A stretch of 64,000 bases of DNA from Hymenobacter siberiensis (GTDB taxonomy: Bacteria > Bacteroidota > Bacteroidia > Cytophagales > Hymenobacteraceae). Both the position numbers and the translations under genes were made by a program. Under the pieces are notes generated by a model. It searched no databases. It worked only from the letters and a program-made list of their open reading frames with translations, and was not told the DNA's origin. Below are positions 15,066 to 20,903 of the stretch, in pieces; the first letter of the stretch is position 1, and each line of letters opens with the position of its first letter. The stretch covers positions 3,782,001-3,846,000 of the forward strand of contig NZ_JAHLZZ010000001.1 of assembly GCF_018967845.1 (NCBI RefSeq), written 5' to 3'.

Positions 15066-15155
15066 GTAGCGCGGACTTTTAGTCCGCGAGTCACCCAGCC
15101 AGCCCACTCTATTTCCATTCAACCACCCCATTCGCGGACTAAAAGTCCACGCTAC
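15066..15155. repeat. REP pair (BIME) of the RAYT-linked family, solo copy
   Basis: Two REP units face each other: GTAG at 15066-15069 followed by CGCGGACTTTTAGTCCGCG, and on the minus strand GTAG followed by CGTGGACTTTTAGTCCGCG (15132-15155). The same units flank the transposase gene at 18004-18600. This copy lies between the coiled-coil gene and the OmpA-fusion gene, 7 nt before the latter's ATG. Confidence 0.88.
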
Positions 15156-15162
15156 TACTCCG

Positions 15163-16941
15163 ATGACAACACGCGGTAAATTCATTATTGGCCTCCTTCT
15201 TTTTGGCCTCCTGTACTTCGGCATCAACAAGCTGGTTACCAGCGGTGCCGTATTTAAAAAGGCCGACACGCAGTCGGTGCTTTTGAACTCGATTGAGCTG
15301 CCCACGACCACCGGCGGCAACCACGCCAACATCGTGGTGCCGCTGGCCCCCATGCCCGGCACCGCCCCGGCCGACAAAGGCACGCCCCTCACCTGGGAAG
15401 TGATGGCCTGGAACAGCCAGATGGCCGGCATGCTGGCCAACGGCGGCCCACGCTCCACGATGGGCTCGGCGGCCGCCGCCAACGGGCTCGACATGCAGAT
15501 TGTGCGTCAGGACGACGTGAGCAAGATGCAGGCCGACCTGGTGAAAAACGCCCTCGACCTGCAAAGCAACCCGGCCACTCCCGGCCTGATTGTGAGCATC
15601 ATGGGCGACGGCCTGCCGGCTTTCTCGGCGGTGCAGAACGAGCTAAAAAAAACCGGTACGCAGCTGCAAATCATCCCCTACTCAGTGGGCAAATCCTTCG
15701 GCGAAGACAAGCTGATGGGCCCCAAGGAGTGGCTGGATAACCCCAAGCTGGCCCTGGGCAAAACCGTGGCCTGCTATCTGCGCGACGGCGACCAGAACAT
15801 TGCCCTAAAATGGTGCGCCGACAACGGCCTGAAGGTGAACCCCGACGAAACCACCTACGACCCCGAAGCCGTGAACTTCATGGCCGCCAGCGACTTCCTG
15901 GTGGCCGCCGAGAAATACATCCTCGGCAAGCCCGAAGCCCGCACCAAGGTAGTGAACGGCAAGAACACGGGCGTGAAGGTGGACGTGGTAGCCGATGCCG
16001 TGGCCACCTGGACGCCCGGCGACGTGAACATCGCCAAGCAGCGCGGCGGCCTCGTGAACATCGTGAGCACCAAGGACTACTCCAACCAGATGCCCAACAT
16101 CATGGTAACGACCAAGCGCTGGTACGACGCCCACCCCAAAGAGGTACTGGGCCTGATGACGGCCTTCGCCGTGGCCGGCGACCAGGTGAAAAGCCACCCC
16201 GAAGCCCTGACCCGCGCCGCCGATATTTCGGCCACCGTGTACGGCGACCAGGATAAGCCCGGGGCCTACTGGCTGAAGTATTACAAAGGCGTGAGCGAAG
16301 CCGACCGCAACGGCGAAGTAGTGGAGCTGGGCGGCAGCAAAGCCTTCAATTTCAGCGACAACTTGACCCTGTTCGGCCTTGATGAAGGCGGCACCAACAT
16401 CTACGCCTCGGTGTACAAAACCTTCGGCGACGTGCAGAAGAAGCTCTATCCGAAGGAGCTGCCCATCTACGTGCCACTCACCGAAATGCTGGACCTCGCG
16501 CCCCTGCAAAAGCTGCAGGCTCAGTACAAAGGCAAAGCCGTAGCCCCGGCCGAAACCCAGCAGTTTGCCGCCGGCGACGAAATCCGCCAGAGTGTGAGCA
16601 AGCGCGCCTGGAACATCGAGTTCAACAGCGGCCAGAGCAGCTTCACCCCCCAGACCACCCGCGAGCTAACCCAGCTTTTCGATGACCTGGTAGTAGCCGG
16701 CCGCCTCAAAGTAGCCGTGCACGGCCACACCGACAACGCCGGCGACCCCGGCAAAAACCAGCAGCTCTCGGAAGACCGCGCCATGGCCGTGCAGCACTGG
16801 CTCGAAACCAAGAGCCACAGCGCCTTCCCCGATGGCCGCATCCAGGTGTACGCCCACGGCGCCACCGAGCCGGTAGCCAGCAACACCACGCCCGATGGCA
16901 AAGCGAAGAACCGCCGGGTCGAGGTGGTGCTGGGCAACTAG
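15163..16941 (+). CDS. ABC substrate-binding protein fused to a C-terminal OmpA domain
   Basis: The 592-residue protein starts MTTRGKFIIGLLLFGLLYFG, an uncleaved-looking N-terminal membrane segment or signal. The central part (about 75-440) is a periplasmic binding-protein fold of the NMT1/SsuA/phosphate-like type, with LTWEVMAWNSQMA, ACYLRDGDQNIALKWCADNG, and an NIVSTKDYSNQMPNIM strand. The C-terminus (about 480-592) is an OmpA-like peptidoglycan-binding domain with VHGHTDNAGDPGKNQQLSED and NRRVEVVL. So the binding protein is probably tied to the cell wall. It is followed by a permease and an ATPase gene that complete the importer. The ligand cannot be read from the sequence. Confidence 0.85.
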   Translation: MTTRGKFIIGLLLFGLLYFGINKLVTSGAVFKKADTQSVLLNSIELPTTTGGNHANIVVPLAPMPGTAPADKGTPLTWEVMAWNSQMAGMLANGGPRSTMGSAAAANGLDMQIVRQDDVSKMQADLVKNALDLQSNPATPGLIVSIMGDGLPAFSAVQNELKKTGTQLQIIPYSVGKSFGEDKLMGPKEWLDNPKLALGKTVACYLRDGDQNIALKWCADNGLKVNPDETTYDPEAVNFMAASDFLVAAEKYILGKPEARTKVVNGKNTGVKVDVVADAVATWTPGDVNIAKQRGGLVNIVSTKDYSNQMPNIMVTTKRWYDAHPKEVLGLMTAFAVAGDQVKSHPEALTRAADISATVYGDQDKPGAYWLKYYKGVSEADRNGEVVELGGSKAFNFSDNLTLFGLDEGGTNIYASVYKTFGDVQKKLYPKELPIYVPLTEMLDLAPLQKLQAQYKGKAVAPAETQQFAAGDEIRQSVSKRAWNIEFNSGQSSFTPQTTRELTQLFDDLVVAGRLKVAVHGHTDNAGDPGKNQQLSEDRAMAVQHWLETKSHSAFPDGRIQVYAHGATEPVASNTTPDGKAKNRRVEVVLGN

Positions 16942-16943
16942 AA

Positions 16944-17128
16944 CGACACTCCCCTCCTCAGCTGAGGAGGGGATGTGAGCGCCGAAGAGGCGCGAATGGG
17001 GGTGGTTGGCCTCGTTGAACGACACCCGAACGAAACCCTTACAGAACCTCACGCGAGTCGTTCAACGATTCAACCACCCCAGTTGAGCCTGCGGCTCAAC
17101 GTTCCCTACTTGGTAAGGAGGGGAGTTT
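16944..17128. repeat. Inverted repeat, CTCCCCTCCT...AGGAGGGG family, second copy
   Basis: The arms start just after the OmpA-fusion stop (CACTCCCCTCCTCAGCTGAG) and end with TGGTAAGGAGGGGAG before the permease gene. The inner parts contain GGGGGTGGTT and AACCACCCC, and TTGAGCCTGCGGCTCAA. It is the same family as 11487-11703. Confidence 0.75.
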
Positions 17129-17152
17129 GACCGCCATTTCCGTTCTCCCACC

Positions 17153-17935
17153 ATGAAAACCCTCTTCTCCCCCAACGCCCAGCCGCGCCCGCTCATCTTC
17201 ACCACCATGGTGGTGGCCCAGGTGGCCCTGTTGCTGCTGCTGTGGCTCTTTTACCCCATGCAGCTCTTCCCCAGCCTGGGCGAAGTCATCCGCTCCCTCG
17301 GCGACCTCATCACCACGCAGGGCCTCATCCCGGAGCTGTGGGCCAGCATGACCACCGCCATCGAGGCACTGGCCGTGGCCACGGTGCTGGCGCTGGGCAT
17401 TTCCTACCTCACGGCGCTACCCTTTTTCCGGCCCATCGCCTACGCGGCCTCCAAGATGCGCTACCTCACCCTCACCGGCCTCACGTTTTTCATGGCCCTC
17501 ATGGTCAGCTCCGGCCATCAGGTGAAGTTATCGGTGCTCATTTTCGGGGCCACCGTATACCTGGTCACGGGCATGACGAGCGTAATTCTGACCACCACGC
17601 AGGAGGAAATGGACCACGCCCGCACCCTGGGCATGAGCGAATGGCGCAGCTTCTACGAAGTGGTAGTGCTGGGGAAATTGGATGAGATGCTCGAAGTAGT
17701 GCGCCAGAATTTCGCCATCATCTGGACGATGATTACGCTGGTGGAAACGCTCTACCAATCCGAAGGCGGCATCGGGCTGCTGCTGTATAAGCAGAACCGG
17801 TACCTGCACCTCGATGGGGTGCTGGCCATTCAGCTGGTGATTCTGGCCACGGGCGCGGCGCAGGACTACGTGTTTGTACTGCTGCGGAGGGTGTTTTTTC
17901 CTTACTCGGCGCTGGGCAGTAGCGCGGACTTTTAG
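17153..17935 (+). CDS. ABC transporter permease (BPD_transp_1, SsuC/TauC type)
   Basis: The 260-residue protein has about six membrane segments. The EAA-type loop is visible in QEEMDHARTLGMSEWRSFYEVV, where the expected Ala-Gly motif is altered to HARTLGMSEW. It completes an importer with the OmpA-fused binding protein upstream and the ATPase at 18703. The protein naturally ends near VFFPYSALG: the last residues (SADF) and the TAG stop are encoded by a REP unit, which shows that the element invaded the end of the gene. The RAYT and two REP pairs now separate it by about 770 bp from the ATPase gene. Confidence 0.88.
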   Translation: MKTLFSPNAQPRPLIFTTMVVAQVALLLLLWLFYPMQLFPSLGEVIRSLGDLITTQGLIPELWASMTTAIEALAVATVLALGISYLTALPFFRPIAYAASKMRYLTLTGLTFFMALMVSSGHQVKLSVLIFGATVYLVTGMTSVILTTTQEEMDHARTLGMSEWRSFYEVVVLGKLDEMLEVVRQNFAIIWTMITLVETLYQSEGGIGLLLYKQNRYLHLDGVLAIQLVILATGAAQDYVFVLLRRVFFPYSALGSSADF

Positions 17936-18006
17936 TCCGCGAGCGAACGGTACGCCTGAACGTTTCCACCCAATTGCTTCAACTCGCGGACTAAAAGTCC
18001 GCGTTA
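17919..18006. repeat. REP pair between permease and RAYT genes
   Basis: Unit 1 has GTAG (17919-17922) followed by CGCGGACTTTTAGTCCGCG on the plus strand. Unit 2 is inverted (17984-18006), headed GTAA in place of GTAG. Unit 1 supplies the permease stop codon; the TAA of unit 2's header is the stop codon of the RAYT gene on the minus strand. Confidence 0.9.
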
Positions 18007-18600
18007 CTGCGCCAGGAAGCTATACGGCCACTTTTCCCAGTCATCGACCAGCCCGGCTTTCACCGGATTGTCCAACACGTAGCGGATAATCCGGTCCAGC
18101 TCTCCTGGCCGCACCACGTGGTCGTAGCTCTCGGCCTGCCAGAAACTGCCGCTCCGACCCAGCAACTGATTCGCCTGCTTGCTGGAATAGCCTTTGAGCG
18201 ATTGTAGTGTTTTTACCAGCGACGGCGCTCCTTCGGGCAGTTCTACTACCAGATGAGCGTGGTTGGGCATGATGCAGTAACATCGCAGGTGGTAGCCTTT
18301 TCCATCGGGATAATGCAGGGCCTGTGCCACGATGGCCGCAACGTCGGGCTGCCGCAGCCAAGTGGGACCGTAGCTGCTACCCGCCAGCAAATCATCGAAA
18401 CGCCCGAAGTATTTCTTCCGCTCGGCATACTGCGCGGCGGGGTCTGGCCCGCAGCTTTCCTGCAGCAATCGCGCTTCGGTCTGCAGCCGCTCCAGCACCT
18501 CCTGCGGCAGGCTGCCCGCCAGCCGAAATGTAATGAAAATGAGCTCGCCCGGTGGCAGCCGGTGCGGCAGGTTGCGCTCATAATAAATCAGGTCGGACAC
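18004..18600 (-). CDS. REP-associated tyrosine transposase (RAYT, TnpA_REP, IS200-like Y1 family)
   Basis: The 198-residue protein has the HUH metal-binding motif in CYCIMPNHAHLVVEL and the catalytic tyrosine region AESYDHVVRP, followed by the family signature YVLDNPVKAGLV. RAYTs are single-copy, domesticated relatives of IS200/IS605 transposases that nick and spread REP elements. The start is a GTG at 18600, only 9 nt from a REP unit; no ATG is nearby. REP pairs lie directly on both sides, and a third pair is at 15066-15155. The gene is on the minus strand inside a plus-strand ABC operon, so it was inserted there. Confidence 0.93.
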   Translation of the reverse strand: MSDLIYYERNLPHRLPPGELIFITFRLAGSLPQEVLERLQTEARLLQESCGPDPAAQYAERKKYFGRFDDLLAGSSYGPTWLRQPDVAAIVAQALHYPDGKGYHLRCYCIMPNHAHLVVELPEGAPSLVKTLQSLKGYSSKQANQLLGRSGSFWQAESYDHVVRPGELDRIIRYVLDNPVKAGLVDDWEKWPYSFLAQ

Positions 18601-18608
18601 CCTGCAAT

Positions 18609-18697
18609 GTAGCGCGGACTTTTAGTCCGCGACCCACAAAGTCCCTCAAAACATCCTTTTCCACCGCTCTCACTCGCGGACTAAAAGTCCGCGCTAC
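18609..18697. repeat. REP pair between RAYT and ABC ATPase genes
   Basis: Unit 1 has GTAG at 18609-18612 then CGCGGACTTTTAGTCCGCG. Unit 2 is inverted (18674-18697), with GTAG on the minus strand. The pair ends 5 nt before the ATPase ATG, so any original leader of that gene has been replaced. Confidence 0.9.
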
Positions 18698-18702
18698 TTC
18701 CC

Positions 18703-19533
18703 ATGACCATCCACACCCACGCCTACCGCGACCCCATCCTGACGCTCAACAACGTCTCCATCGCCTTCCACGGCGAATCCATCCTGCGCGACATCAACGC
18801 CCAGGTCCTCGACGTGACGCGGCCCAACATGCGCCAGGGCCAGGTCGTGGGCTTCTACGGCCGCTCGGGCATCGGCAAGTCGGTGCTGTGCCGCATCATG
18901 GCGGGCCTCATGGCGCCCGGCACCGGCACCGTGGAAGTGGGCCTCGCCCAGCAGGCCGTGACGCCCGGCATGGTGGGCTTCGTGCAGCAGCGCTACCCCC
19001 TCTTCGAGCACCGCACCCTGCACGACAACCTGCTGGTGGCCGCCCAGCGCAAGCACGCCCCCGCCGACGCCCGCCAGCACGTCGAGGCCTACCTCGAACG
19101 CTTCGGCCTGGCCCCGCACCGGCGCAAGTACCCGGCCCTGCTCTCGGGCGGACAGCGCCAGCGGGCGGCCATCGCCCAGCAGCTGCTCTGCTCCGACCAC
19201 CTCATCCTGCTCGATGAGCCCTTCTCCGGCCTCGACGTGGCCATGATTGACGAAGTGAAGAAAATCATCGTCGAAGTCACCACCATGGACGAGCTGAACA
19301 CCGTCATCATCGTCTCGCACGACATCGTGACCACCACCGCCCTGGCCGACCGCCTCTGGCTGCTCGGCTACGAGCACGACGCGGCCGGGGCCCTCGTGCC
19401 GGGCGCCACCATCAGCCCCCAGCACCAATACAACCTGGCCGAAATGGGCCTCGCCTGGCACGAAAACGTCGAAGCCGAACCAGAATTCGCCCAGTTTGTC
19501 GAGCACATCAAGAATGAGATTCGGGGGAGTTAA
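18703..19533 (+). CDS. ABC transporter ATP-binding protein (nitrate/sulfonate-type importer family)
   Basis: The 276-residue cytoplasmic ATPase powers the importer with the permease at 17153 and the binding protein at 15163. Walker A is GRSGIGKS, the signature is LSGGQRQR, Walker B is LILLDEPFSGLD, and the H-loop is VSHDIV. The Q-loop is in GFVQQRYPLFEH. The C-terminal 40 residues after the ABC fold are an extension with no known role. It is 768 bp from the permease because of the RAYT/REP insertion, so its transcription may now be altered. Confidence 0.93.
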   Translation: MTIHTHAYRDPILTLNNVSIAFHGESILRDINAQVLDVTRPNMRQGQVVGFYGRSGIGKSVLCRIMAGLMAPGTGTVEVGLAQQAVTPGMVGFVQQRYPLFEHRTLHDNLLVAAQRKHAPADARQHVEAYLERFGLAPHRRKYPALLSGGQRQRAAIAQQLLCSDHLILLDEPFSGLDVAMIDEVKKIIVEVTTMDELNTVIIVSHDIVTTTALADRLWLLGYEHDAAGALVPGATISPQHQYNLAEMGLAWHENVEAEPEFAQFVEHIKNEIRGS

Positions 19534-19924: not shown

Positions 19925-20903
19925 GACTTGTTGCGAAGTGAGTGAAGTGCGGAATTTTCGACAAACTGTACTTAAATTTAGAACATGAACTTTTCCGTAA
20001 AAAACCTCACTACTTCGCGTAAATGGCGTGCTGCCACGGGACTCACGGCGGAGCGTTTTGCGCAGCTTTTGGCGCATTTTAAGCAGGCGTATTTTCGGTT
20101 AAATGGAACAGATATGATTGAACGTGGGGCTTTTGCGCCGTATGAAGTAGCCCTTAAAACAGAAGAAGAATTACTGCTTTTCACCCTATTCAGCTTCAAA
20201 GCAAACTTGACGTATGATTTGTTGGGATTGGTCAGTGGGATGGACGGTTCCAACGCGAAACGCAACCAGGAATTAGGCATTACGGTGCTCCAAGAAGCGC
20301 TGGAGCAAACCGGGCATGCGCCAAAGCGGGAATTTGCGACAGTGGCCGAATTTGAAGCCTATTTTCAGGAACACGAGACGTTATTGGTCGATGGAACAGA
20401 GCAACGCAAGCAACGACCAGGAAATAAAGAGATGCAAAAAGACTACTATAGCGGTAAAAAAAAATACACGCCGTAAAAGAGATAGTTATTTCAACGACCA
20501 TTCGCTGGATTGGTTTTATCAGCCGTTGTTACGGCGGAAGACACCACGACTACAGTGTGCTAAAAAGCATTTTACCAGTTGATAAAGAGTGGTTTAAAAA
20601 GTTCAAGGTGCGGTTGGACCTGGGGTTTTTGGGCTTCGCGAAAGACTACGTTTGCCGGAAAGTTTTTATTCCTATCAAAAAGCCGAAAGGGAAAGAACTC
20701 ACCGATGAACAACGAGAAATAAATACAAAACAAGCAAGTGAACGAATTACCGTAGAGCATAGCATTGGCGGATTGAAACGTTATCGAATTTTGGAAGACC
20801 GATTACGTTTGCATAATTTGAACCTGTACAATGACGTGCTGGGAGTGTGTGCGGGCTTGTGGAATTTCAGCTTAAATCTGTGATTAATAGCTCGCAACAA
20901 GTC
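19925..20903 (+). mobile_element. IS5-family-like insertion sequence, 979 bp
   Basis: The ends are perfect 12-bp inverted repeats, GACTTGTTGCGA at 19925-19936 and its complement at 20892-20903. TA occurs on both sides (19923-19924 and 20904-20905), consistent with a 2-bp target duplication as in the IS427 group of IS5. It encodes one transposase in two frames. It interrupts a HEPN-type gene. Confidence 0.88.
19985..20883 (+). CDS. DDE transposase (DDE_Tnp_4 type), two frames joined by -1 frameshift
   Basis: The first frame (19985-20476, 163 residues) starts MNFSVKNLTTSRKWRAATGL and contains LLVDGTEQ, the first catalytic Asp region, and ends at YYSGKKK. Here the DNA has nine A in a row (20455-20463). 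A -1 shift on this run gives KKKIHAVKEIVI, then HHDYSVLKS and the C-terminal ERITVEHSIGGLKRYRILEDR with the catalytic Glu. The second frame ends at 20883. The slippery run and the intact second part suggest programmed frameshifting or transcriptional slippage, not decay. Confidence 0.85.

Follow-up and report, generated by a model that had tools for sequence, protein, structure and literature searches.

We analysed a 64,000-nucleotide stretch of the Hymenobacter siberiensis genome (hereafter the window), in which a gene for a REP-associated tyrosine transposase (RAYT) lies between the permease and ATPase genes of an ABC operon, enclosed by two inverted pairs of repetitive extragenic palindromic (REP) units, each able to form one long hairpin (REPIN). 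In many accounts RAYTs are presented as domesticated transposases which follow the history of their host. We conclude, with a probability of about 0.7, that this REPIN-RAYT-REPIN cassette is an allele at one home junction that has undergone repeated in-place replacement between species, because the REP type tracks the RAYT, the gene trees conflict and the locus of one genome (G068) is a mosaic. G-numbers designate the Hymenobacter genomes compared, G000 (4.95 Mb) being the window's own genome.

The REP unit of the window, here called type T1, consists of the tag GTAG (GTAA in one copy) and a 19-nt palindrome with an 8-bp stem and a TTT loop. A search with GTARCGCGGACTTTTAGTCCGCG at up to 3 mismatches returned six matches across the 64 kb, against an average of 0.00 in 100 shuffles: 15066-15088(+), 15133-15155(-), 17919-17941(+), 17985-18007(-), 18609-18631(+) and 18675-18697(-). 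The unit at 15133-15155 carries a single mismatch (CGTGG in place of CGCGG). These units form three inverted pairs, each folding into one long single-stranded DNA hairpin: REPIN A (15066-15155, z -9.5), between a PspA-like gene and an OmpA/substrate-binding-like gene; REPIN-L (17919-18007, z -7.9); and REPIN-R (18609-18697, z -11.2), between the starts of the RAYT and ATPase genes. A preliminary description had already recognised the six units in three inverted pairs, and its coordinates stand except for the end of the second pair, which the GTAA unit places at 18007 and not at 18006.

The RAYT gene (18004-18600, minus strand) encodes 198 residues, from a GTG start 8 nt from REPIN-R to a stop codon supplied by the GTAA tag of REPIN-L. 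Its earlier assignment as a HUH/Tyr transposase with its own REP pairs directly on both sides was borne out by a Pfam Y1_Tnp match (25.7 bits, cut-off 23) and by its sole PDB match, the E. coli TnpAREP 4er8 (E 5e-6 over residues 101-195); the score against the NCBIfam RAYT model NF047646 was 79.4 bits, just below the cut-off of 80. The HUH motif is H114-A-H116 and the catalytic tyrosine is expected at Y174. In a 34-row alignment of RAYTs from the genus (gaps and stops ignored, guide-contact positions aligned to 4er8), H116 and Y174 were invariant and H114 was altered only in G068. The guide-contact residues W154, Q155, D160, H161 and R164 were likewise invariant, lineages with changed tags included. 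An AlphaFold model built from four sequences (mean pLDDT 47) was too poor for fold comparison. G000 holds a single copy of this RAYT and four other matches, 57, 33, 31 and 33% identical; several gene copies with the same ends at different sites, as for an insertion sequence moving as a unit, were not found in G000, nor was any REP unit inside the window's RAYT gene at up to 3 mismatches. Judged by sequence, the element is a REPtron, i.e. a predicted TnpAREP/RAYT gene between two REPINs of its own REP, in Hymenobacter, and its RAYT appears close to TnpAREP subclass 2.4 by motifs compared by eye with the published table. A second G000 RAYT (G000:C1:1328006-1328527, L032) is interrupted by a TAG and has its own REP-like arms, GTAGTGCGAAGCGNCGCTTCGCA, around it.

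Analysis of the same junction across the genus indicated that the position of the RAYT is old, not a recent arrival. At E 0.001, 91/120 genomes gave RAYT matches; many of these belong to distant kinds of RAYT. Among the 31 permease-ATPase junctions read, 20 contained a RAYT orthologue in antisense orientation and 11 did not; the arrangement is thus present in at least 20 of the 120 genomes, and its carriers are spread over the two deep clades of the rpoB tree. REPs lie on both sides of all 20 junction RAYTs, as pairs except for single visible arms on the left in G042 and on the right in G107. Reading the RAYT-free gaps by eye revealed other inverted repeats in G009, G007, G020, G099, G008, G057, G091 and G046, one REPIN without a RAYT in G025 and G045, and nothing in G052. 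G065, where the permease was not found beside the ATPase, was left out of the junction work. Thirteen other RAYTs of the genus, at different places, have REP-like arms on both sides, of types unseen at this junction. In a second RAYT lineage (L083-L095), a different ABC ATPase gene, 25-31% identical to the window's, lies no more than about 1.5 kb away at 10/13 loci, perhaps marking a second home locus.

Comparing the cassettes showed that the REP type changes with the RAYT, not with the species. At the junction, T1 is found in G000, G072, G033, G089 and G103; T1b (loop TTC), one base from T1, in G028 and G101; and T2 (GTAGCGTGGACTCTGCGAGTCCGCG) in G113, G039, G043, G067, G068, G058 and G010, with G042 mixed. 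The remaining junction types are T2b (G107), T3 (loop TTGT; G115), T3 with the tag GTTG (G106 and G086) and a GTAC-tagged type (G071), and all types share most of their stem. Mantel tests covered 32 rows, 19 of them syntenic, for which REP types were assigned by hand; G042, whose gene is broken and whose REPs are mixed, was excluded, as were the two more distant G000 copies. Over the 19 syntenic loci, RAYT and REP distances had a rank correlation of 0.60, reached by 0/2000 permutations; rpoB and REP distances gave a rho of 0.06 (332/2000), and RAYT and rpoB distances were weakly related (rho 0.165, 82/2000). Tags that break the GT[AG]G rule were found at L119 and L116 (GTTG), at L077 (GTAC) and at several places in G009, with unchanged guide-contact residues in the RAYT.

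The gene trees conflict. Approximately unbiased (AU) tests showed that the rpoB data reject the RAYT clades (six groups, p 3.8e-60 to 8.6e-5), that the RAYT data reject the rpoB groups (five groups, p 4.6e-9 to 3.5e-4), and that the combined permease and ATPase data reject the RAYT clades (six groups, p 1.4e-9 to 0.042), most weakly for G106+G086 (p 0.042) and G028+G101 (p 0.022). T1 and T1b are joined in the RAYT tree (98/94); by rpoB and the flanking genes, the two T1b genomes, G028 and G101, fall in the other of the two deep clades (100/100). The rpoB tree comprises 29 rows, since no match was obtained for G099; G052 and G065 were left out of it.

The locus of G068 displays this conflict within a single sequence. 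G068 and G089 are sisters by rpoB (92/99) and are 87-99% identical outside the cassette (columns 750 to 1574, scanned in 75-column windows); inside it their identity falls to 57-73% in 10/11 windows, with 86% in the remaining one, and G068 is 77-97% identical to G067. All 11 cassette windows of G068 are nearer G067, whereas 8/10 permease windows and the first three ATPase windows are nearer G089 (6/11 for the whole ATPase, with 2 ties). Sites of G068 shared with G089 or G067 numbered 56:23 in the permease gene, 41:20 in the ATPase gene and 16:82 in the RAYT gene (Fisher test, flank versus RAYT sites, 1.7e-16). The switch in similarity falls near the cassette ends. G068 carries 37 T1 REPs, 29 of them exact, and 6 T2 REPs, 4 of which surround its T2 RAYT. 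The HUH motif of this RAYT reads NPVH, its first histidine lost, so the enzyme may be dead. Twelve trios of this kind, that of G068 included, gave Fisher values below 0.05 in 11 cases, the exception being G028 (0.26); the trios share genomes.

A genome-wide search for the unit, proposed in the preliminary description, revealed a REP family. G000 contains 95 copies of the 19-nt palindrome at up to 2 mismatches (49 on the plus and 46 on the minus strand), and the palindrome read backwards gave 0 matches. The stretches fetched from G000 contained 100 units at up to 4 mismatches. Pairing each plus unit with a following minus unit no more than 200 nt away yielded 43 inverted pairs whose tags point outwards and left 14 units unpaired; the latter include the two halves of a pair split by an insertion sequence (IS), two same-direction neighbours, one extra unit of a triple and one unit with 4 mismatches that is probably a chance match. 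The tag is GTAG in 80/86 arms, the inward continuation AGT occurs in 35/86, and the base preceding the tag is G in 1/86. Pair spacers are 16 to 99 nt long and show no detectable similarity beyond the AGT edge; since the highest scores between spacers in G000 only match those obtained after shuffling, we rejected the idea that spacers are element DNA copied within the genome. Variable spacers between tail-to-tail REPs are described in PMC3733652. Codon-model-supported gene ends face the REPIN within 150 nt on 49/86 REPIN sides: the stop falls exactly in the tag in 15, in the loop in 3 and within 30 nt before the tag in 21, 10 of these 21 leaving one base between stop and tag. We set aside a raw count of open reading frame (ORF) stops (25/86 at the tag) in favour of this one because long false ORFs are common at this G+C. 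That GTAG REPs often supply TAG stops has been published (Di Nocera 2013, PMC3733652). Inverted doublets, able to form one long hairpin, are the main REP form in G000, and the family has the attributes of the GTAG superfamily: a GT[AG]G tag at the palindrome foot, many copies and frequent location at gene ends. A 24-mer scan of the species collection found at least 103 stretches; among the 80 listed, 79 were from Hymenobacter and 1 from Hymenobacteraceae.

Two observations concern variation of the family within the species. An IS with a DDE_Tnp_1 transposase lies inside a T1 REPIN at G000:C1:1961253-1962517 (L048, 4254-5518), with a 10-bp target duplication, GTCCGTGAGT; this REPIN is intact in G072, which has about 30 copies of the same IS. 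A REP together with about 18 nt is in tandem at G000:C1:4349363-4349469 (L043) and single in G072, i.e. a REP was gained or lost within the species.

REP copies also persist where no matching RAYT is found. The preliminary description had counted absence of the unit elsewhere in the genome, or equal repeat density in relatives without a RAYT, against its reading; the unit is not absent elsewhere in G000, and relatives without a close RAYT do carry it (38 copies in G007, 45 in G020, 48 in G082 and 48 in G045 at up to 2 mismatches), but genomes with a T1 RAYT are richer. The five genomes with a matching RAYT have more copies than 24 others with at least 10 copies (one-sided Mann-Whitney p 0.003; the T1b genomes G028 and G101 and genomes with fewer than 10 copies were dropped). 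The share of exact T1 units is 52 to 72% in these five and 0 to 78% in the 24 others (p 0.0018, or 0.0032 without G072), with G068 (78%) and G007 (63%) against the trend. Old REP types thus roughly decay. In G000 itself, 31 T2-type units are present although its permease-ATPase junction has no T2 RAYT, as leftovers of an earlier type would be.

Ordinary REPIN sites, without a RAYT, keep their position while their content changes type. We read eight G000 pair sites and one single site in 2 to 12 other genomes each. At 7/8 pair sites (the exception being 3412702) a T2-type arm occupies the same gap in relatives; elsewhere these gaps hold other repeat families or no visible element, and their flanks can be aligned (at 3797070 on the right side only). 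The gap of REPIN A holds T2-type REPINs in G033 and G009, and there, too, the right end lies 7 nt from the ATG. At site 1960428, the T1 spacers of G000, G103, G033 and G007 are mutually related, as are the T2 spacers of G020 and G039 (this relatedness within type is reached by 0/500 shuffles), and the two sets are unrelated. At least one T1 and at least one T2 occupant have the same left distance at 4/6 comparable sites and the same right distance at 4/6 (G043 at 3408939 was read by eye and is not in the distance table). Some of the shared distances could reflect a preference for stop codons and small gaps.

We propose that the RAYT would nick folded single-stranded REPs at the tag and rejoin them, and so spread the 95 copies, for the most part in inverted pairs at the ends of genes; this activity is assumed here from work on TnpAREP (PMC8266576). 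Whole cassettes, RAYT and matching REPs together, would swap between species at the permease-ATPase junction, the simplest route being that incoming DNA recombines within or beside the flanking genes. The new RAYT would then spread its own REP type and the old type would decay, and content would be replaced at a kept position on ordinary REPIN sites in the same way. We infer the direction of the replacements and the recombination route; copy number, pairing, shared position, co-variation, tree conflict and mosaic are observations. PMC6006769 says that REPtrons do not move as units, and replacement at a fixed locus is compatible with this.

Several findings weigh against cassette replacement. 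The species tree is that of rpoB alone. In G068, 3/11 ATPase windows favour G067, and so does the last permease window, which means that the left breakpoint may be within the permease gene. Permease and ATPase both agree with the rpoB neighbour only in the trios of G068, G086 and G089, and in G101, G010 and G039 the ATPase alone agrees with it; both flanks side with the RAYT neighbour in G106, G107 and G028, and the ATPase also in G033 and G103. Given these mixed counts, much of the exchange may have taken the flanking genes along, or the chosen neighbours may be wrong. Intact T1 populations exist without a T1 RAYT in G007 and G068, and the loss of the HUH histidine could be an alternative cause of the few T2 copies in G068. 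Finally, when the site lists of G000 and the same-species G072 were compared by eye, almost all REP sites looked shared and equally spaced, so that, apart from one 41-nt tandem gain, little points to mobility at present.

Gaps might also be selected to hold a hairpin, for mRNA stability or for termination between the genes of an operon, with any available repeat family filling them. We regard this as unlikely but worth keeping in mind, and it is compatible with cassette replacement. The gap at 1959688 (L048, about 2689-2742) has an inverted repeat in 9/9 species including G000 (G072 apart), of at least 4 kinds by eye, and REPs lie at gene ends where they often supply the stop codon. Gaps that seem empty by eye exist, though (G046, G099 and G103 at 3408939; G089 at 2514742), and small intergenic gaps could be the sole harmless place for an insertion.

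A rather doubtful proposal is that REP tags act as exchange points, the RAYT swapping whatever lies between the outer tags, be it a REPIN or a full cassette, at an occupied site, since the tag is common to the REP types. The tag boundaries common to T1 and T2 occupants at the comparable sites would fit it. So would the T1b cassette of G028, whose left end is identical to that of the T2/T2b cassettes of G058, G010 and G107, all in the second clade, and the half-T1 half-T2 pairs in G033 at 2514742 and G020 at 2509789. The left end of G101 also reads GTAG, followed by a rearranged REP. Weak evidence for the same idea comes from G043, where a GTAGCGC stub occupies the T1 position ahead of the T2 cassette; putative fossil T1 ends before the T2 cassettes of G067 and G045 were dropped because native codons explain them as well. 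If tags do act in this way, REPIN sites would be docking slots, and the exchange would be the missing mechanism of the orthoswitch described by Nunvar 2013.

The explanation offered with that orthoswitch is mutation in place: the RAYT is inherited vertically, the flanking REPs mutate to a new class and the RAYT adapts. The common locus, the shared stem and the single base between T1 and T1b speak for it, but the RAYT tree disagrees with both rpoB and the flanking genes, the G068 locus is mosaic, and the spacers at 1960428 were replaced along with the arms; we therefore consider it improbable for this junction. Marginally less probable still are ancient tandem RAYTs, lost differently in each lineage. 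Some junctions (G086, G107, G101 and G010) do contain multiplied REPs, but 0/31 junctions read have two adjacent RAYTs, this scheme would require many parallel losses, and it would leave the changes at RAYT-free REPIN sites unexplained. A recent insertion that split the operon, as the preliminary description had it, is very improbable: G009 is near G000 by rpoB and flanks (96-97% protein identity) and has no RAYT at the junction, but the shared antisense position in at least 20 genomes of both deep clades contradicts recency and no gene is broken.

The host operon accommodates the cassette closely. The gene for a substrate-binding-like protein with a C-terminal OmpA domain (15163-16941, plus strand) belongs to the same operon as the ABC permease gene (17153-17935, plus strand; TauC/SsuC-like, weak match), whose last codons lie inside REPIN-L and whose frame, opposite to that of the RAYT, stops on the loop TAG of this REPIN. 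The ABC ATPase gene (18703-19533, plus strand) starts 5 nt after REPIN-R; permease and ATPase are merely set apart. Two more inverted repeats, with 12-bp and 17-bp arms, lie at 16950-17068 between the substrate-binding-like and permease genes. Downstream of the ATPase, remains of a transposase gene in two frames occupy 19985-20883, the second piece matching DDE_Tnp_4.

No paper joining Hymenobacter and 'repetitive extragenic palindromic' was found in a search outside which lay most subscription journals and all bioRxiv preprints. This one RAYT locus in one genus exists in 20 natural versions, with three tags and no fewer than six REP types, and also offers a mosaic locus and REP populations left behind, so the mechanism of the orthoswitch, guessed at by its authors, becomes open to test. 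Matched RAYT/REP pairs (tags GTAG, GTTG and GTAC; loops TTT, TTC, CTGCG and TTGT) could be used to find the residues that read tag and loop.

According to the published accounts we compared, the E. coli REPtron (Quentin 2018, Corneloup 2021) is alike in its HUH/Tyr enzyme, GTAG tag and inverted hairpin pairs on both sides, and its W/Q/(E or D)/H/R guide-contact positions are also kept in the Hymenobacter RAYT. Unlike E. coli REPs, those of Hymenobacter have a perfect stem without a bulge, a TTT loop and variable spacers, and sister lineages carry the tag GTTG or GTAC instead of GT[AG]G. TnpAREP subclass 2.4 from Bacteroidetes and Cyanobacteria (Quentin 2018, PMC6006769) resembles the window's RAYT in a length near 194 residues, the NH-hydrophobic-H, WQ and Y[IV]xxNP motifs (a comparison by motifs only) and long canonical REPs whose foot has GC pairs; the window copy is distinguished by reading NHAH and YVLDNP and by having no REP unit inside its gene. 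As in Pseudomonas fluorescens SBW25 (Bertels & Rainey 2011, PMC3116915), inverted doublets are the main form and singles are fewer; unlike those REPINs, the Hymenobacter spacers have no detectable common sequence within the genome beyond the AGT edge. In the Pseudomonas and Stenotrophomonas orthogroups (Nunvar 2013, PMC3686654), syntenic RAYTs likewise have different REP classes and old classes are left behind; there the switch is ascribed to mutation of flanking REPs with the mechanism left open, and horizontal transfer is considered for isolated RAYTs (PMC3686654, PMC2817692). Syntenic RAYTs with different REPs and REP-supplied stops were thus known already, and what is new is evidence for replacement as the mechanism of the switch in this genus: in Hymenobacter, tree conflict and a mosaic locus point to cassette replacement, not to REP mutation.

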